Below, one piece after another: positions 7,617 to 16,278 of a DNA stretch of 64,000 bases (positions are counted from its first letter, which is position 1; each line of letters opens with the position of its first letter). The stretch spans positions 62,001 to 126,000 of the forward strand of contig ASRH01000001.1 of NCBI GenBank assembly GCA_000565255.1. Direction: 5' to 3'. The translations under genes and the position numbers were made by a program. Source of the stretch: Candidatus Aramenus sulfurataquae. Its GTDB lineage: Archaea; Thermoproteota; Thermoprotei_A; Sulfolobales; Sulfolobaceae. The notes under the pieces were generated by a model. The model did not search any database. It was not told the origin of the DNA and saw nothing but the letters and a program-made list of their open reading frames with translations.

Positions 7617-8324
7617 ATGGAATTTACGAAGCTTGGGGAAGGAAAGACAAAGGAAGTTTACTCCTTTGATGAGCAACACGTGCTCCTAAAGTTCAAGGAC
7701 ACCGTTACAGCAGGAGATGGGGCAAAGGTTGACGTGATAAAGGACAAGGGCGTAATTAACGCCCAAACTTCCGCCCTCTTCTTTAGGGCTTTGGAGAGGG
7801 AAGGGATCAAGACGCACTACGTTGGAATGTACGACGAGAGGACAATGATAGCCAAGAGGCTGAAGATGGTACCCGTTGAGGTGGTGCTCAGGAATTTGGC
7901 CACGGGGAGCATAGTAAAGAGGTTGCCAATAAAGGAGGGGGAGGTCTTCGACCCTCCCATAGTTGAATTCTTCTTGAAGGACGACGCTAGACATGACCCC
8001 ATGCTAAATTACCACCACATGGAGTTCCTGAAGCTGATGACAAGGAAGGAGGCAGAGCAGGTAGAGGAGGTAATGGTAAGGGCAAACAAGGTACTTAAGG
8101 GCTTAGTAGAGAGGATGGGCCTAGTCCTTTACGACTTCAAGTTGGAGTTCGGAAGGCTAGGCGATGAGCTCATCATAGGAGACGAGATATCCCTGGACTC
8201 CATGAGGGTAAGGGACAGAGAGGGGAGAATATACGACAAGGACCTCTACAGGAAGGGACAGCCCCTTGAGGTGGTGGCTTCTTCTTACGCTGAGTTCCTC
8301 GAGAGGTTGAAGAGGGTGGTCTGA
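7617..8324 (+). CDS. purC: SAICAR synthase
   Basis: PurC joins CAIR and aspartate, with ATP, to give SAICAR in purine synthesis. The 235-residue protein shows the family features [41 protein letters not shown] and the C-terminal [10 protein letters not shown]...[10 protein letters not shown]. It is the first gene of an eight-gene operon. The start codon lies about 25 nt after a clear TATA box. The stop overlaps the purS start by one nucleotide (TGATG). Confidence 0.97.
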
Positions 8325-8590
8325 TGTATAGCGTAGAGGTAATTGTCCTTAACAAGGAAGGGATAAGGGACCCAGAGGGAGAAGCGATAAAGAAGTACAT
8401 GGTAGACAAGGTGACCGACAAGGTTAAGGAAGTAAGGGCGGGAAAGTACGTACTTTTCAAGATAGACGCGGGGTCAGAGGAGGAAGCTATGAACATAGCC
8501 AAAAAAGTCGCCGACGAAAAGAGGCTCTACAACCCCATTGTTCACAAGGTGGAAATAAGGGTGAGGAAGGACGAAGACGGCGGTCATTAA
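8324..8590 (+). CDS. purS: FGAM synthetase subunit PurS
   Basis: PurS is the small structural subunit that bridges PurQ and PurL in the three-part FGAM synthetase. The 88-residue protein has the expected ferredoxin-like pattern: EVIVLNKEGIRDPEGEAI, a helix, VRAGKYVLFKIDA, then EEEAMNIAKKVADEKRLYNPIVHKVEI. The start overlaps the purC stop by one nucleotide. Its 3' end overlaps the probable purQ coding start at 8571. Confidence 0.93.
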   Translation: MYSVEVIVLNKEGIRDPEGEAIKKYMVDKVTDKVKEVRAGKYVLFKIDAGSEEEAMNIAKKVADEKRLYNPIVHKVEIRVRKDEDGGH

Positions 8591-9239
8591 GTTCCCTGGA
8601 ACCACTTGCGATTACGACGTCCTAAAGGCGCTGAGGGAGGCAAAGGTAGAGGCTGAGCTAGTGAGGTACAAGGACCTGGACCCAGATAGGTACTCCTCCG
8701 TTGTAATACCAGGGGGTTTCAGCTTTGGCGACTACTTAAGAGCAGGGTCAATAGCTGCAAGCACGGAGACCATGGAAATGATAAAGGAGATGGCAAACCA
8801 AGGGAAGACTGTGCTGGGTATATGCAATGGATTTCAGATCTTGACTGAAAGCGGTCTCCTAAAGGGAGCGCTCCTGCCAAACTTGAAGATGAGGTTCATA
8901 TCCAAATGGGTTTATGTGAAGGTGGTGAGGGACGACACTAGGCTCACTAAGAACCTACCAAAGAAGGTTTTGAGGATGCCAATAGCTCACGCAGAGGGCA
9001 GGTTCGTGTTAGAAGAGGAGGAAGCGAGGAGACTTATGGTGTTCCAGTACTCAAACGAGAAGGGGGAGGTTTCAGAGGACTACAACCCCAACGGCTCCGT
9101 GCTGAACATTGCTGGCATAGCCAACGAGGAGGGGAACGTAATTGGGCTAATGCCCCACCCCGAAAGGGCTTCCTTTTCCCTAACTTCAATTGACGGAAAC
9201 GTAGACGGATTACTTTTGTTGAGGGGATTGAGGTGGTAA
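8571..9239 (+). CDS. purQ: FGAM synthetase glutaminase subunit PurQ (non-standard start)
   Basis: PurQ is a class I glutamine amidotransferase that delivers ammonia to PurL. The nucleophile lies in VLGICNGFQIL (Cys85 if counted from 8571), and the catalytic His-Glu in LMPHPERA. The first ordinary start in frame is GTG 8661, but that would remove the conserved N-terminal strand (AVIKFPGTTCDYDVLKALRE), which is fully encoded upstream. Before it there is no ATG, GTG or TTG down to the in-frame TGA at 8562. ACG 8571 stands where a start is expected and gives Met-Lys-Thr-Ala-Val-Ile, with GTGAGG at 8561-8566 as a possible ribosome site. Length from 8571 is 222 residues, normal for PurQ. A base substitution or rare start is inferred. 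Confidence 0.85.
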   Translation, partial: TKTAVIKFPGTTCDYDVLKALREAKVEAELVRYKDLDPDRYSSVVIPGGFSFGDYLRAGSIAASTETMEMIKEMANQGKTVLGICNGFQILTESGLLKGALLPNLKMRFISKWVYVKVVRDDTRLTKNLPKKVLRMPIAHAEGRFVLEEEEARRLMVFQYSNEKGEVSEDYNPNGSVLNIAGIANEEGNVIGLMPHPERASFSLTSIDGNVDGLLLLRGLRW

Positions 9240-11344
9240 GCCTCTCAGAGTACGAACTAGACGTCGCTAGGAAAAGGTTGGGCAGGGACCCAAGCCCTGT
9301 TGAAGTTAAGGTAATTGACGCTTTATGGTCAGAGCACTGCTCCTACAAGTCGTCAAAGATATTCCTGAGGAGCTTTCCAAGCGAGGGCCCAAGAGTAGTG
9401 ATGGGAATAGAGGACTGGCAGGACGCTGGGGCAGTTGACATAGGAGATGGTTACGCGATAGTGCTAAAGGTTGAGAGTCACAACCACCCATCAGCTGTTG
9501 ACCCCTTTAACGGCGCGGCCACTGGCGTTGGCGGCATCATAAGGGACATAATAAGCAAAGGGGCCACGCCAATAGCTTTGCTAGACATGATAAGGGTAGG
9601 CGAGCTAAAGGATGACAAGAACAAGTGGCTCCTGAAGAACATTATCGCTGGGATAGGCTTTTACGGCAACAGCATTGGTATCCCGGTAGTTGGTGGAGAG
9701 CTCTCCTTTGACGAGTCCTTCTCAGACAACCCACTAGTCGACGTAGCTTGTGTCGGTATCGTCAAGAAGGACAAGATAAAGCCGAGCGTCGTCAAGGAGC
9801 CCGGGCTAAAGCTAGTTCTGGTAGGGCTCACTGGAATAGATGGCCTAGGAGGGGCGTCCTTTGCTTCCAGGAAGCTTAGCGGAGAGAACGAGATTGGGGC
9901 TGTGCAGATAGCCGACCCATTTGCGGGCAAGATAGTCATGGACGTTACGCTAGAGATAGCCGACAAGGTAGAGGCCATAAAGGACCTTGGTGGCGGTGGG
10001 TTAGCGGTAGCGGTGACTGAAATGGCCAATGGGCTGGGAGCCAGAGTATACGTCGACAAGGTACCCCTCAGAGTAAAGGACATGAGCCCGGAGGACATCA
10101 TAATCTCCGAAACCCAGGAGAGAATGCTCTTTGCAGTTAGGGAGGAAAACGTAGAATACGTCTGTAAGGCGTTTGAATATTACGAGTATCCTTGTGCGGT
10201 TATAGGCGAGGTAACCTCTGACAGCTTTATAAGGTTCATCTACGAAGGAAAGGAAATAGCTTCCCTTCCGTCTCAACTTCTCTTATCTCCTCCGCTTTAC
10301 GCGTGGCCAATAAGGGAGAAAGCGAGGAAAATAAACGTGAAACCGAACGTTGAGCTCGAACAAGCAGTGCGCTCTGTTCTCGCTCACCCAGACCTAGCAA
10401 GTAAAGAGTGGGCGTACTCCCAGTTTGACTACGAAGTTGGGACGTCAACGGTAGTGAAGCCGGGGGAAGCGGACTCCGCCGTAGTCTCCCTGCCCAATGG
10501 CAAGCTGTTGGCCATAAAGGGAGACGCGAACCCAGACCTCTGCGCTGAGGACGCTTACGAGTGCGGGAAAGCCATATTTGCTGAAGCGTATAGGAACTTG
10601 GCTGTTGTGGGAGCTAGGGGAATAGCTGCGGTCGACCACCTCCAGTTTGGCGACCCCAAGAAGCCCGAGATATACAGCGACTTCGTTGACGCGGTTAGGG
10701 GGATTGGAGAGGCGGCGAGGTTCTTCTCCATACCCATCGTCGGGGGAAAGGTATCCTTCTACAACGAGAACAAAAAAGGCGTAGCTATAAAGCCCACGCC
10801 CCTCGTCGTGATGGCGGGGCTAGTGGAGGGAAAATTGCTCAAACCGAAAGTAGAGGAGGGGAGCCTAGTGCTTATCGGGTACACCAGGAACGAGATGAGG
10901 GGGTCGCTCTTTGCCAAGCTGTTTGGTCCCTATGGCGAAGTTCCCAAGGCGAGGTTACAGGAGGACTACTTAGCGAGCGAGGTCGTTCTCGACTTAATCA
11001 ACCAGGGTACCATTCTCTTCGCAAAGGACGTGAACAGGGGAGGCCTTATGGGCTCCTTAATGGCTATCCTAAGCAAGGGCTACTCAGCTAAAGTTGACCC
11101 AGACAGGATCCTTGGAACTGATGACCTTATGGCTAAGTTATTCTCCGAGAACGGAGGGAGGTTTATTGTAATAACCAACTCTCCCGAAAGCGTAGTTGAG
11201 AGGGCAAAGAGGAGAGGGACGATAGCGTCAGTTATAGGGGAAGTGAAGAAGGGGAATTACCTCGAGATAGGCTCATGGAAACTTAACGTCAAGAAGGAGG
11301 TTGAGCACCACTCAAACTACCTGGAGGTGGAGATGAGTGATTAA
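9233..11344 (+). CDS. purL: FGAM synthetase subunit PurL (small type)
   Basis: PurL converts FGAR to FGAM with ATP and ammonia from PurQ. At 703 residues it is the short archaeal/Bacillus form that needs separate PurS and PurQ, both encoded just upstream. Features include the N-terminal WSEHCSYKSSK, the substrate and Mg sites around VLKVESHNHPSAV and DPFNGAATGVGGI, and the second half with DVNRGGLMGSL. Start GTG 9233 overlaps the purQ end by 7 nt, consistent with co-translation. Confidence 0.97.
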   Translation: MVSLSEYELDVARKRLGRDPSPVEVKVIDALWSEHCSYKSSKIFLRSFPSEGPRVVMGIEDWQDAGAVDIGDGYAIVLKVESHNHPSAVDPFNGAATGVGGIIRDIISKGATPIALLDMIRVGELKDDKNKWLLKNIIAGIGFYGNSIGIPVVGGELSFDESFSDNPLVDVACVGIVKKDKIKPSVVKEPGLKLVLVGLTGIDGLGGASFASRKLSGENEIGAVQIADPFAGKIVMDVTLEIADKVEAIKDLGGGGLAVAVTEMANGLGARVYVDKVPLRVKDMSPEDIIISETQERMLFAVREENVEYVCKAFEYYEYPCAVIGEVTSDSFIRFIYEGKEIASLPSQLLLSPPLYAWPIREKARKINVKPNVELEQAVRSVLAHPDLASKEWAYSQFDYEVGTSTVVKPGEADSAVVSLPNGKLLAIKGDANPDLCAEDAYECGKAIFAEAYRNLAVVGARGIAAVDHLQFGDPKKPEIYSDFVDAVRGIGEAARFFSIPIVGGKVSFYNENKKGVAIKPTPLVVMAGLVEGKLLKPKVEEGSLVLIGYTRNEMRGSLFAKLFGPYGEVPKARLQEDYLASEVVLDLINQGTILFAKDVNRGGLMGSLMAILSKGYSAKVDPDRILGTDDLMAKLFSENGGRFIVITNSPESVVERAKRRGTIASVIGEVKKGNYLEIGSWKLNVKKEVEHHSNYLEVEMSD

Positions 11345-12674
11345 AGAGCACTGCGGTGTGTTTGGAGTAAAGGGAGAGAACGCGGTAAGGTACGTGTATG
11401 AGGGGCTGAAGCTCCTCCAGCACAGGGGACAGGAATCTGCAGGTATATCCTTTGTGGAGAATGGTAGGTTGAAGACCGTGAAGGGACTGGGACTAGTTGA
11501 GGAGGCCTTAGGGGAAGGCATAGACAGTAACTCAAACGTGGGCATAGGCCACGTTAGGTACTCCACTACTGGGAAGACGACCTTGGAGGAGGCGCAGCCA
11601 CTGAGCAACGAAGTTCTAGCAGTAGCGTTTAACGGCACCATAACAAACTATTTCGAGTTCGGCAACTTCTCCACAGATACGGAGTTTATCCTAAAATTCC
11701 TCAACAAGGATCTGGAGGACGGGAAGAGTTTAGTTCAAACTATTAAGCATTTCGTAGACGTGGCTGACGGAGCCTACTCCTTGTTAGTATTGACTAGGTC
11801 AGGGGAAATCTACTCAGTGAGGGACCCGAAGGGCTTCAGGCCACTAGTGCTCGGGAGAATAGGAAAGAGCGTTGTGGTGTCGTCGGAAGACTCACCTATA
11901 AGGCAACTGGGAGGTAAGGTAATTAGGGACGTGTATCCTGGGGAGGTTGTCGTGATCAAGGAAGGGGAAGTCTACTCCGAGGTGTTGGCGAGGTCGGAAG
12001 TAAGCACTTGCGCCTTCGAGTACATTTACTTTTCAAGGGCTGACAGCGTGATAGACGGTATTTCCGTATATAAGGCGAGGGAGAGGCTCGGAGAAGTGCT
12101 TTTCGAAAGGCACCCAGTTGACGCAGACATAGTAGTCCCAGTCCCCGACTCATCTAGGCCCATCGCCATTGGCTTTTCAAGGAGGGGTGGAATACCTCTT
12201 GAAGAGGCCCTTGTGAGAACCTTGGCGTCAAAGAGGTCCTTCATAATGCCTACAAACGAGAAGAGGAACGAGGTTCTTGAGGAGAAGTTCGGCGTAGTGG
12301 AGGAGGTCATAAACGGTAAGAGGGTCGTCCTCATAGACGACTCCATAGTCAGGGGGAACACCATGAAGAGGCTTATCTCCCTCTTAAGGAACGCCGGAGC
12401 TAAGGAAGTGCACTTGAGGATAGGCTCCCCTCCAATAAGGTACCCATGTTACATGGGGATTGACTTCCCCAGGAGGAGTGAGCTAGTGGCCTACGGAAAA
12501 ACTGAGGAAGATATCGCCAGGGAGTTGGAAGCAGACTCCTTGGGCTACTTGACGGTGGAGGAAATGATTGAGGCAATAGGAAAGAATGCTCTGTGTACAG
12601 CTTGTTTCACTGGGAAATACCCACTAAAAGGTAAGTACCAAATGGAAAGACTAGAGATAGCTTTTAGGAGGTGA
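11337..12674 (+). CDS. purF: Amidophosphoribosyltransferase
   Basis: PurF catalyses the first committed step, making phosphoribosylamine from PRPP and glutamine. The 445-residue protein begins MIKEHCGVFG, so Cys6 would be exposed by removal of a short propeptide and act as the glutaminase nucleophile. Glutamine-binding residues are in HVRYSTTG and AFNGTITN. The PRPP loop is VVLIDDSIVRGNT. Four cysteines (STCAFEY, YPCYMG, LCTAC) match the Fe-S ligand positions of the Bacillus-type enzyme. Start GTG 11337 overlaps purL by 8 nt. A paralog without the nucleophile follows. Confidence 0.96.
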   Translation: MIKEHCGVFGVKGENAVRYVYEGLKLLQHRGQESAGISFVENGRLKTVKGLGLVEEALGEGIDSNSNVGIGHVRYSTTGKTTLEEAQPLSNEVLAVAFNGTITNYFEFGNFSTDTEFILKFLNKDLEDGKSLVQTIKHFVDVADGAYSLLVLTRSGEIYSVRDPKGFRPLVLGRIGKSVVVSSEDSPIRQLGGKVIRDVYPGEVVVIKEGEVYSEVLARSEVSTCAFEYIYFSRADSVIDGISVYKARERLGEVLFERHPVDADIVVPVPDSSRPIAIGFSRRGGIPLEEALVRTLASKRSFIMPTNEKRNEVLEEKFGVVEEVINGKRVVLIDDSIVRGNTMKRLISLLRNAGAKEVHLRIGSPPIRYPCYMGIDFPRRSELVAYGKTEEDIARELEADSLGYLTVEEMIEAIGKNALCTACFTGKYPLKGKYQMERLEIAFRR

Positions 12675-12679
12675 AGGGC

Positions 12680-13882
12680 ATGGCTGGGATAGTAGGAGTG
12701 TTGGCGTTTGACAAGGTATGGAACGTCTCCAAGTTTTTGTACTACGCCCTAATAGGTCTACAGCACAGGGGTTACTCCTCCAGTGGAGTTGTACTACTAA
12801 ACGGGGAGTTCTACAAGCACAGAGAAGACAAGTCTCCAGAAGACATGAGGCTCAACGGCGAGGGATGGGCTGGAATAGGCTACACTGGAAAGGAAAGGGC
12901 ATACCCATTGGTCTACGAGGACGTAGCAGTTGTAGTGGACGGGATATTGAAGAACCCGGAGGCCTTAAGGAGATTGCCTAAGGACCCTGAGAAGACGCTC
13001 TCTGAGCTAGAGGGAGCCTTCTCGCTTGTGGCCTTAACTAGGGAAGGACAGATGATAGCTTACAGAGACGAAAGCGGTCTAAAGCCATTGACCTTGGGAG
13101 GATTTGGCTTCGACATGGCAATCGTAGCGTCTGAGAACGTAGCAATAAACGTAATAGGTGGGGAAGCGAGGAGGGAGATTTCTCCTGGGGAGATGATAAT
13201 AGTTGACAAGTACTACATAGACTCTAAGAGGCTGAAGGAACCTAGGAGGAACTACTGCGCAATAGACTACGTCTACCAGTCCAGAATAGACGGCAAGATA
13301 AACGAGAGGGATATATATGCTTTGAGGGTTAGAATAGGGGAACAGTTGGCCAAGGAGAGGCCCATACAAGGAGACACAGTTATAGGAGTACCGGATACAG
13401 CGTTGCCGTTTGCAGTCGGGTACTCTAGGGCAACCGGTATACCCATTGACTTAGGGTTCACAAGGACTGGTAGTCCAATAAGGACGATGCTAGCGCAGGA
13501 CAGCTTCCTTAAGGTCGTTGGGGTTCAACTAAAGCTAAACGTAGTGAAATCTGCAGTTTTCGGTAAGAGGGTCATCTTGATTGACGACTCAATGGTCACG
13601 GGACTCACGTTGAAGAACACGGTTATGAGCTTGAGGAGAGCTGGGGCAAAGGAGGTTCACGTGCTGATAGGAAGCCCCAAGCTGGTCTCGCACTGCCCCT
13701 ACGGAGTTGACGTGCCCAAGTCTTCAGATCTAATAGCTGCTAACTTGAGCGACGAGGAAATAGCCAAGGTCATCGGAGCTAACTCCATTTATTGGCTAAG
13801 CTTGAAGGGGCTTTACGAGGTGATAGGAATTAACACAATATGCGTCGGATGTATGGTGGGGAGATACCCAAAGGTGATGTGA
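12680..13882 (+). CDS. PurF paralog lacking the glutaminase nucleophile
   Basis: This protein of about 400 residues aligns with PurF over its full length: LQHRGYSSSG near the N-terminus, PRPP loop VILIDDSMVTGLT, and cysteines in YCAIDY, SHCPYG and ICVGC that match the four Fe-S ligands. The N-terminus reads Met-Ala-Gly-Ile-Val-Gly, with Ala where the catalytic Cys should be. The glutamine-binding Arg (HVRYSTTG in PurF) is replaced in GIGYTG, and the oxyanion Asn of AFNGT is Asp in VVDGI. ATG 12680 is preferred because GGAGGTGA lies 5 nt before it; GTG 12671 is possible. It may be an ammonia-using or regulatory partner of PurF. Function is inferred only. Confidence 0.85.
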   Translation: MAGIVGVLAFDKVWNVSKFLYYALIGLQHRGYSSSGVVLLNGEFYKHREDKSPEDMRLNGEGWAGIGYTGKERAYPLVYEDVAVVVDGILKNPEALRRLPKDPEKTLSELEGAFSLVALTREGQMIAYRDESGLKPLTLGGFGFDMAIVASENVAINVIGGEARREISPGEMIIVDKYYIDSKRLKEPRRNYCAIDYVYQSRIDGKINERDIYALRVRIGEQLAKERPIQGDTVIGVPDTALPFAVGYSRATGIPIDLGFTRTGSPIRTMLAQDSFLKVVGVQLKLNVVKSAVFGKRVILIDDSMVTGLTLKNTVMSLRRAGAKEVHVLIGSPKLVSHCPYGVDVPKSSDLIAANLSDEEIAKVIGANSIYWLSLKGLYEVIGINTICVGCMVGRYPKVM

Positions 13883-15316
13883 ATGAAAGTCCTACTTATA
13901 GGCGACGGGGCCAGGGAAAACTCCCTTGCGTTCTCTATAGCCAAGTCTGGGAGATACCAGCTATACGCCTTTTCCTCTTACGTAAACCCTGGGATAAAGG
14001 AGAACGTAGACAAGACCAACGGGAAGTACTTCGTGGGCGACATCCTGTCAAAGGATGAGGTAAAGAGGGTAATTTCTCAAGTTAGCCCAGACTTTGGGGT
14101 CATAGGCCCAGAGGACCCGCTCTTCAACGGAGCTGCTGATGCCTTCAGGGAAGAGGGAATACCCGTAGTGGGGCCTTCAAGTAAGGCATCGACGATAGAG
14201 AAGTCAAAGGTATGGATGAGGAACTTGATGTGGAAGTACAACATCCCAGGGAGGCTTAGGTATAGGGCGTTCAACAACTTGGCGGACGCAGCAAAGTTCG
14301 TAGAGGAGTACGGCGGCTCAATAGCCATTAAACCCTCAGAGCAGGTAGGTGGTAAGGGTGTTAAGGTAGTCGCCGACATCCAGGCTTACCTCTCCCAAGA
14401 GAAAAGGAGGGCTGCAAGTAGGAGCGTCGACGAGATAGGCAGGTTGGTGAAGGACGAGGTGAAAATAATAATAGAGGAAAAAGTGGACGGTCCAGAGTAC
14501 ACCCTTCACGTCCTTACTGACGGGCGTAGCTTCCTGCCCTTGCCCCTGGCGCAAGACTACAAACACGCCTACCAGGACGGCATAGGGCCAGAAACTGGAG
14601 GGATGGGCTCTATCTCTGGTCCAGGCTATACGTTGCCCTTTATCGATGAGGACGAGTACAAAGCTACCTTCGAGATAGTAAAGCAGACTGCAGAAGCTAT
14701 AAAGAAGGAGACCGGGGATGAATACGTGGGGTTCATATCTGGTCAAATGATGTTAACAGAGCTATGGGGACCAACGGTCATAGAGTTCTACTCTAGGCTC
14801 GGCGATCCAGAGGCCTCAGCAATTGTTCCAAGAATAACCAGCGATTTTGGAGAAATCCTGGAGCTGGCAGCAACGGGGAAGTTAAACAAGGCAAAGCTTG
14901 AGGTAGATCCAAGGCCTTCCATAGTTAGGGCCATCGCCCCCTTGGGCTATCCGCTAAACAGGGACTTAGCAAAGGGAAAGGAGATATCATTGGACTTACC
15001 TAAAATGAAGGAGATAGGATGCCAAGCGTTCTTTGGGGCAATATCCCTATATGGAGGAAAGCTCATAACCACTGGCTCTAGGGCCTTAGAGCTTGTAGCC
15101 ATAGACGACACATACGAGGGAGCAGTGAAGAAGCTGGATCTGTGTACTTCCCTCGTGTCGTCAAACACGAAGCTCATATACCGCACAGACATAGGAAGGA
15201 CAATAGAAGAACAAGTGGAGAAGGCAGAAATAGTGAGGTACTCGTACAAGGACAGGATAAAGAGGGGAGTTCTCGGAGCCTCAATGGACTGGTCTCCAAA
15301 CGGTGGTCTCTGGTGA
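13883..15316 (+). CDS. purD: Phosphoribosylamine-glycine ligase
   Basis: PurD ligates glycine to phosphoribosylamine using ATP (second step of purine synthesis). The 477-residue ATP-grasp protein begins VLLIGDGARENSLAFSIAKS, has SKVWMRNLMWKYNIPG, the nucleotide loop EYGGSIAIKPSEQVGGKGV, and the metal-binding PTVIEFYSRLGDPEA late in the grasp domain. The start codon abuts the stop of the PurF paralog. It is somewhat longer than typical bacterial PurD (about 430 residues), with extra charged sequence near residues 165-190. Confidence 0.95.
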   Translation: MKVLLIGDGARENSLAFSIAKSGRYQLYAFSSYVNPGIKENVDKTNGKYFVGDILSKDEVKRVISQVSPDFGVIGPEDPLFNGAADAFREEGIPVVGPSSKASTIEKSKVWMRNLMWKYNIPGRLRYRAFNNLADAAKFVEEYGGSIAIKPSEQVGGKGVKVVADIQAYLSQEKRRAASRSVDEIGRLVKDEVKIIIEEKVDGPEYTLHVLTDGRSFLPLPLAQDYKHAYQDGIGPETGGMGSISGPGYTLPFIDEDEYKATFEIVKQTAEAIKKETGDEYVGFISGQMMLTELWGPTVIEFYSRLGDPEASAIVPRITSDFGEILELAATGKLNKAKLEVDPRPSIVRAIAPLGYPLNRDLAKGKEISLDLPKMKEIGCQAFFGAISLYGGKLITTGSRALELVAIDDTYEGAVKKLDLCTSLVSSNTKLIYRTDIGRTIEEQVEKAEIVRYSYKDRIKRGVLGASMDWSPNGGLW

Positions 15317-16278
15317 GCAAGTACACTGACGCAGGGGTGGACATAGGGAAGCAGAGGGAGCTCCACTCTAAGATAGCGGAAATGATCTCGTCCACGTACA
15401 GAAACGCCATAGTGGGGGCAGGCCACTACTCAGGGGTGGTGAAGGTAGGGACGCAGAACATAGCCATCCACGTGGACGGGGTGGGCACAAAGACCCTCCT
15501 CTCCCTAAAGACCGGGATATACGAACCCATCGGCGTGGACTGCGTTGCAATGAACGTTAACGACCTGGTCTCAATTGGGGCAAGGCCGGTAGCTTTGGTT
15601 GACTACCTAGCGCTAGAGAGGCCAATGGAAGACGTGGTGGAGCAGTTGACAAAGGGCTTGGTCAAGGGGGCTAAGGAGTCAGATGCTGAGATAGTAGGGG
15701 GAGAGACAGCAATAATGCCTGGAGTCATAAACGGCTACGACATTGCGTGCACAGCTATTGGCGTCGTTGATTCCCCAAAGCTGGGAAATGACGTGAGGCC
15801 AGGGGACGTGGTGCTAGGCCTAGGGAGCAACGGCGTCCACGCAAACGGCTTTTCGTTAGTCAGGAAGTTAATAGATGAGGGTAAGCTGTCCTTGAAGGAC
15901 TGGGGAGAGGAGCTAATGAAGCCGACGAGGATCTACGTTAGGGAAATCCTCGCAGTCCTTGACAAGGTTAAGGCAGTTGCGCATATCACTGGAGGCTCAT
16001 TTACCAAGCTCAGGAGAGTTACTAAATACGGGCTCGAGCTGAGGATGCCGGAACCACATGAAGTCTTTAAGGAAATAGAGAGGGCAGGGGTACCCCACGA
16101 CGAAATGTACAGAGTGTTCAACATGGGGGTGGGAATGGTGGTCTTTACTGATAGAGAGAACGCGGAAGTTCTTAAAAACTTTTTATCGAGATACCATGAA
16201 GTTTTTGAGTTAGGTCAAGTAACTGAGGGGGACAAGATAAAAATTATTACGTATAAGAACGAAATTCTCTACCTATAG
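15313..16278 (+). CDS. purM: FGAM cyclo-ligase (AIR synthetase)
   Basis: PurM closes the imidazole ring, FGAM to AIR, with ATP. The preferred start is GTG 15313, overlapping the purD stop by 4 nt (GTGA); it gives 321 residues and the usual N-terminus YTDAGVDIGKQREL. The frame is open further upstream, but that part is only purD read out of frame. Visible features are HVDGVGTKTLL, GVDCVAMNVNDLVSIGARP, VGGETAIMPG, VLGLGSNGVHANGFSLVR and AHITGGSF. It is the last gene of the purine operon. purE/K, purB and the final IMP-forming genes are not in the window. Confidence 0.95.
   Translation: MSKYTDAGVDIGKQRELHSKIAEMISSTYRNAIVGAGHYSGVVKVGTQNIAIHVDGVGTKTLLSLKTGIYEPIGVDCVAMNVNDLVSIGARPVALVDYLALERPMEDVVEQLTKGLVKGAKESDAEIVGGETAIMPGVINGYDIACTAIGVVDSPKLGNDVRPGDVVLGLGSNGVHANGFSLVRKLIDEGKLSLKDWGEELMKPTRIYVREILAVLDKVKAVAHITGGSFTKLRRVTKYGLELRMPEPHEVFKEIERAGVPHDEMYRVFNMGVGMVVFTDRENAEVLKNFLSRYHEVFELGQVTEGDKIKIITYKNEILYL

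Follow-up and report, generated by a model that had tools for sequence, protein, structure and literature searches.

PurF', a PurF paralog with a degenerate glutaminase site and a conserved PRPP site, accompanies PurF in the purine gene cluster of Candidatus Aramenus sulfurataquae and in many other archaea

The 64,000-nucleotide stretch of Candidatus Aramenus sulfurataquae DNA analyzed here (the window) carries on its forward strand, to which the window coordinates below refer, a purine biosynthesis cluster in the order purC-purS-purQ-purL-purF-purF'-purD-purM. The upstream part of the cluster, purC to purL, occupies 7617-11344 and is followed by purF (11337-12674), which encodes canonical glutaminase and phosphoribosyltransferase (PRTase) domains and scores 420.9 bits on the NCBIfam purF model, i.e. 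above its cut-off of 350. A second PurF-like gene, purF' (12680-13882), comes directly after it, with an intact frame of 400 codons running from an ATG at 12680 to a TGA at 13880-13882. A Shine-Dalgarno-like element, AGGAGGTGA (12666-12674), lies 5 nt upstream of the purF' ATG and overlaps the purF stop codon; purD (13883-15316) begins at the first base past the purF' stop, and purM is assigned to 15142-16278, the bounds of its longest open reading frame, the real start probably being further inside. An earlier note on this DNA had described a full-length PurF relative preceded by a ribosome site, and both parts of that description hold. PurF' and the upstream PurF share 34% identity (BLASTP, 431 columns, E 7e-77), and the PurF' score of 222.4 bits on the purF model (TIGR01134) falls under the curated equivalog cut-off of 350.

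Alignment with Escherichia coli PurF reveals that the glutaminase half of the window PurF' has lost most of its catalytic determinants. Ala2 (GCT, 12683-12685) replaces the catalytic Cys1, Gly70 (12887-12889) the glutamine-binding Arg73, and Asp87 (12938-12940) the oxyanion-hole Asn101, so that the three losses reported in the earlier note are real. Where PurF has Cys1, Arg73, Asn101, Gly102 and Asp127, the window protein has A, G, D, G and N, respectively, and it also lacks Tyr74 and Thr76. The comparison across Sulfolobales that the earlier note had proposed reveals that PurF' proteins across the order and beyond have likewise lost the glutaminase residues; the Asp at the Asn101 position, for example, is present in 79 of 120 PurF' sequences.

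The PRTase half, by comparison with E. coli PurF, retains the flexible loop (residues 263-287, 13466-13540), in which Arg268 and Lys285 correspond to R332 and K349, as well as the PRPP loop VILIDDSMVTGLT (residues 298-310, 13571-13609), which carries the DDSxVxGxT signature. The latter is not wholly canonical because Arg371, invariant in PurF, is a Thr, a refinement of the earlier description of a retained loop. Four cysteines, i.e. Cys193 (13256-13258), Cys339 (13694-13696), and Cys388 and Cys391 (13841-13852), are putative Fe-S ligands, matching in the alignment the ligand cysteines of Bacillus subtilis and Arabidopsis PurF; cysteines of this B. subtilis type are 92-98% conserved among the PurF' proteins of the order. 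An AlphaFold2 model of the window PurF' (mean pLDDT 90, pTM 0.89) has the PurFs of B. subtilis, Arabidopsis and E. coli as its top structure matches, with query TM-scores of 0.85-0.89 and 1ao0 as the best PDB match (E 6e-42). Since the model matches full-length PurF, an Ntn fold is still predicted for the dead half.

The window gene belongs to a known family. PurF' was described for Crenarchaeota as a second PurF-like cluster, in which the Cys is replaced by Ala or Val and the gene clusters with purine genes; it was proposed to be an ammonia-dependent PRPP aminotransferase, the purF duplication being without an established explanation (Brown et al. 2011, Biol Direct 6:63, PMC3261824). A search for later work on PurF' found none in the literature covered. 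The interpretation offered in the earlier note was sound with respect to the absence of decay, selection on the PRPP site and a likely tie to PurF, but it did not recognize the gene as belonging to the PurF' family. What is added here to the 2011 description is the range of PurF' outside Crenarchaeota, the grouping of 120 PurF' sequences in a single clade, the loss of Arg73 and Tyr74 before that of Cys1, a quantification of PRPP-site conservation and glutaminase-site drift, and dN/dS values.

Among 147 genomes of the order searched, 62 of the 64 that bear PurF carry a PurF' ortholog (our own count), and the two that do not are 56% and 77% complete. Outside the order, roughly half of the genomes of the phylum that bear PurF were found by profile searches to have PurF' as well (46, our own count), as were 13 of the 47 Asgard genomes in which PurF gave a match and 4 genomes from the phylum containing Theionarchaea. 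Several families, including f18, which we guess to be ammonia oxidizers, have a single PurF. Named PurF' records include Jordarchaeum, Theionarchaea, Bathyarchaeota and Methanomethylicota; they come from an alignment-based contig scan, a single-protein scan with the window protein having given no match. No case of PurF' without PurF was found in any genome searched, whether in the order, in the phylum outside it, in Asgard archaea or in the phylum of Theionarchaea. Both genes were present at 104 loci: in 93 they are neighbors on the same strand, in 2 they are neighbors on opposite strands, facing each other, and in 9 they are separated by ~9 kb; in the genomes of family f7 and in genome G018 they are far apart. 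The Bathyarchaeota genome G317 (locus L101) has, in addition to PurF', a PurH split into two adjacent genes. In family f25, the genomes of which are ~2 Mb, PurF' is shorter, with frames of 376-424 residues (L181, L184, L186, L190, L194, L195, L197, L199, L204 and L207), and the dead domain is reduced further.

Phylogenetic analyses place all 120 PurF' sequences in one group, with a support of 1.0 in a FastTree tree of 281 sequences and a UFBoot of 100 for the corresponding bipartition in a maximum-likelihood tree of an 83-sequence subset. Neither Arg73 nor Tyr74 is present in any of the 120, yet eight Asgard PurF' sequences, forming a nested group (UFBoot 100), retain Cys1, Asn101, Gly102 and Asp127. 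These sequences (L096, L222, L224-L227, L229 and L230) have S/C-P in place of Arg73-Tyr74. They may be at an intermediate stage or, alternatively, be amidases with another substrate. The earlier note had named orthologs with an intact Cys, as a sign of local mutation, as what would speak against its reading; such orthologs do exist, solely in Asgard archaea, but because Arg73 and Tyr74 are already lost in them they reflect an older stage and not a mutation local to the window. Provided that Cys1 was never regained, the sequences suggest a PurF' ancestor that was without glutamine binding and still had the Cys, which would then have been lost later and several times, being replaced by Ala, Ser, Thr, Gly, Pro or Val. 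Because deep branches of the 83-sequence tree have supports of only 65-77, the tree does not fix exactly how often the Cys was lost. In sequences with an unambiguous start, Cys1 has almost always given way to one of these six, which are the small residues that permit removal of the initiator Met. Apparent cysteines in four PurF' sequences of family f8 (L039, L041, L061 and L063) were rejected as alignment artefacts lying upstream of the real start.

The contrast between the two halves was quantified by comparing the entropy of 8 glutaminase and 12 PRPP-site positions, chosen on the basis of what is known of E. coli PurF, with that of 10000 random sets of positions from the same domains. The choice of R73, T76, G102, R342, K349, T333, T374 and R371 is backed by published contact tables (PMC7953260). 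In PurF, both sets are far tighter than random (0/10000). In the 120 PurF' sequences the glutaminase positions have an entropy of 2.38 versus a domain mean of 2.36, with 5009 of the 10000 random sets being as low, whereas the PRPP-site positions have an entropy of 0.32, versus 0.44 in PurF, and no random set is as low. The glutaminase site of PurF' has therefore drifted to background variability, while its PRPP site is conserved as in PurF. R332 and K349 are retained in all 120 sequences, R342 is R or K in all, D366, D367, S368, G372 and T374 are retained in 97-99%, and Y258 in 99%; of these and the other tested residues, simulations of E. coli PurF show K349, R342, T333 and T374 touching the PRPP analogue (PMC7953260). 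Changes in the PRTase half are seen in nearly all PurF' sequences on the ammonia side, where F334 is Ala or Met in 96% of the sequences and Y329 and R328 are lost, and at R371, a contact to the PRPP phosphate, which is Thr or Ser in 56%.

Among close relatives, using pairs for which dS was not saturated, PurF' has dN/dS values of 0.03-0.11 for its glutaminase half and 0.016-0.08 for its PRTase half; comparing the window gene with its nearest relative gives 0.082 and 0.016, respectively. Together with the entropy values, these results reveal strong purifying selection on the PRPP site, as the earlier note had supposed. The PRTase half is about as well conserved in PurF' as in PurF over 5356 genome pairs (identity 0.482 versus 0.484), less so in Sulfolobales other than Sulfolobaceae (0.496 versus 0.559), and better within Sulfolobaceae (0.747 versus 0.683).

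The paired PurFs have features of their own. Only Sulfolobaceae PurF has lost the loop residues R328 and Y329: nearly all of the PurFs of this family (window 11337-12674; loci L001-L022) lack the flexible-loop sequence KNRYVGR and have RTLASKR, RTISSKR or similar instead, Tyr329 being invariant in single PurFs and in bacteria. A reciprocal loss, in which PurF would be losing its PRTase activity, was considered on account of EEKFGVV replacing KLN in PurF and was rejected; a PDB PPAT chain (9q0n) also has KKFGV and, moreover, the PRTase residues of the paired PurFs are mostly kept. In one metagenome-assembled genome (G132; L043:8446-9844) PurF itself is glutaminase-dead, with Cys1 changed to Gly, Arg73 to Gly, Tyr74 to Asp, Thr76 to Ala, Asn101 to Asp and Asp127 to Pro, its frame being intact and its PRTase half retained, whereas the PurFs of congeneric relatives are normal. 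Since PurF and PurF' are both dead in this genome, its phosphoribosylamine synthesis may depend on ammonia, although the assembly is 83% complete and a third PurF copy could lie in the missing part.

We favor, at about even chances, the reading that PurF' is an ancient PurF paralog with a dead, folded glutaminase half, which serves as a PRPP-binding and probably PRPP-aminating companion of PurF. The sequence comparisons establish what this reading builds on, i.e. glutaminase loss, retention of the PRPP contacts, selection on them, and obligate co-occurrence with PurF; from these we infer PRPP binding and turnover. The PRTase half would bind PRPP with a closing loop and probably aminate it, with PurF' acting beside PurF in phosphoribosylamine synthesis, most likely within a shared complex. 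E. coli PurF lacking its Cys still uses ammonia (PMC3261824), and the wall of the internal ammonia channel is formed by Tyr74 and Ile335 (PMC7953260). The evidence speaks against a functional glutaminase in PurF', which also means that, with Tyr74 gone, one side of that wall is missing; the ammonia would have to come from elsewhere, either from PurF in a mixed complex or from solution; both the mixed oligomer and the ammonia source are speculative. Some observations sit uneasily with the favored reading. The changes on the ammonia side (F334, Y329 and R328) and at R371 could mean another nucleophile or no turnover, the two genes are far apart in the f7 genomes and G018, and a plain ammonia-dependent enzyme should sometimes occur without PurF, which it never does here.

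A possible, though on balance unlikely, alternative is that PurF' is a regulatory subunit, which binds PRPP or purine nucleotides at its intact site without turnover and tunes the activity of PurF. Its obligate pairing with PurF is consistent with such a role, as is the replacement of R371 by Thr or Ser in more than half of the sequences. PurF is, moreover, a classical feedback-controlled step, with nucleotide sites that overlap the PRPP site (PMC7056826). However, the loop-closure residues K349 and R332 are kept in 120 of 120 sequences, and over so deep a divergence one would expect a pure sensor to have dropped some of the catalytic loop residues.

A stronger version of the companion reading, which we advance tentatively and consider rather unlikely, is that PurF and PurF' together form one obligate mixed PRPP amidotransferase as its two subunits, an enzyme that would be ancestral in much of Archaea, with PurF giving the ammonia and PurF' supplying or sharing the aminating site. 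It is doubtful that PurF' is instead a stand-alone phosphoribosyltransferase joining PRPP to an acceptor other than ammonia; the acceptor side has indeed undergone a conserved, PurF'-specific remodelling (N327 to T, R328 to G, F334 to A or M, Q/H347 and W372), but the constant position in the purine cluster and the fact that PurF is always present do not point to any other pathway.

PurO, the archaeal IMP cyclohydrolase, is an Ntn-fold protein without a nucleophile. As the IMP cyclohydrolase step is without a known gene in Crenarchaeota (PMC3261824, PMC6797443), and PurF' likewise combines a nucleophile-less Ntn domain with a nucleotide-binding domain, we considered whether PurF' might be the missing enzyme, which appears very improbable. 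In favor of this proposal, a family search found PurO and PurH absent from all 45 Thermoproteota PurF' genomes tested, with two weak partial matches to PurH. It is disfavored by the co-occurrence of PurH with PurF' in at least nine genomes (8 of the 13 Asgard genomes and G317, the latter with the split PurH), and genomes with a single PurF, as well as some Thermococcales, are without PurO, PurH and PurF' alike. The diphosphate-binding loop residues would, furthermore, be unneeded for such a reaction, PurO does not appear in the list of the 50 best structure matches to the PurF' model, and the PurO model TIGR01922 has no match in PurF' or in genome G000. Finally, the absence of the catalytic Cys and of most other glutaminase residues might suggest a decaying duplicate, which the earlier note had dismissed on the basis of the intact frame and the ribosome site, or a strain-local mutation. 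Both can be dismissed because orthologs are present in 62 of 64 genomes of the order with the two exceptions incomplete, and because PurF' forms a single clade across archaeal phyla (UFBoot 100) with an invariant PRPP site and dN/dS values of about 0.02-0.1 in both halves, far below 1.

Since 2011, PurF' has stood without explanation as a second copy of the enzyme with which purine synthesis begins. The overall results narrow the question to a protein with a PRPP site as strict as that of a working enzyme and a drifting glutaminase site, in a pair that is inseparable over much of Archaea. Were the companion reading of PurF' to extend to a mixed enzyme, a two-protein enzyme would catalyze the first committed step of the purine pathway in these lineages, and these archaea, relatives of eukaryotes among them, would regulate purine synthesis in a way that departs from the textbook scheme.

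With respect to known systems, the window gene differs in nothing of kind from the PurF' of Brown et al. (2011), sharing the missing N-terminal Cys, the place adjacent to purF in the purine cluster, the separate sequence cluster, and the presence of one PurF and one PurF' per genome. With the PurF/GPATase enzymes (TIGR01134; B. subtilis 1ao0, E. coli 1ecb and Arabidopsis 6lbp), PurF' shares the PRPP and diphosphate loops, the flexible loop and, as modelled, the full-length fold, with the B. subtilis-type Fe-S ligand cysteines being common to the window PurF'; it differs in being without Cys1, Arg73, Tyr74, Thr76 and Asn101, and in the changes at Y329, F334 and R371. Mlab_0150 of Methanocorpusculum labreanum is likewise a PurF duplicate, but has a Ser at the catalytic Cys and is set apart by its description as a recent duplicate of that organism's own purF (PMC3261824). 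PurO, like PurF', belongs to the purine pathway and has a nucleophile-less Ntn-hydrolase fold but, unlike PurF', is without a PRTase domain.
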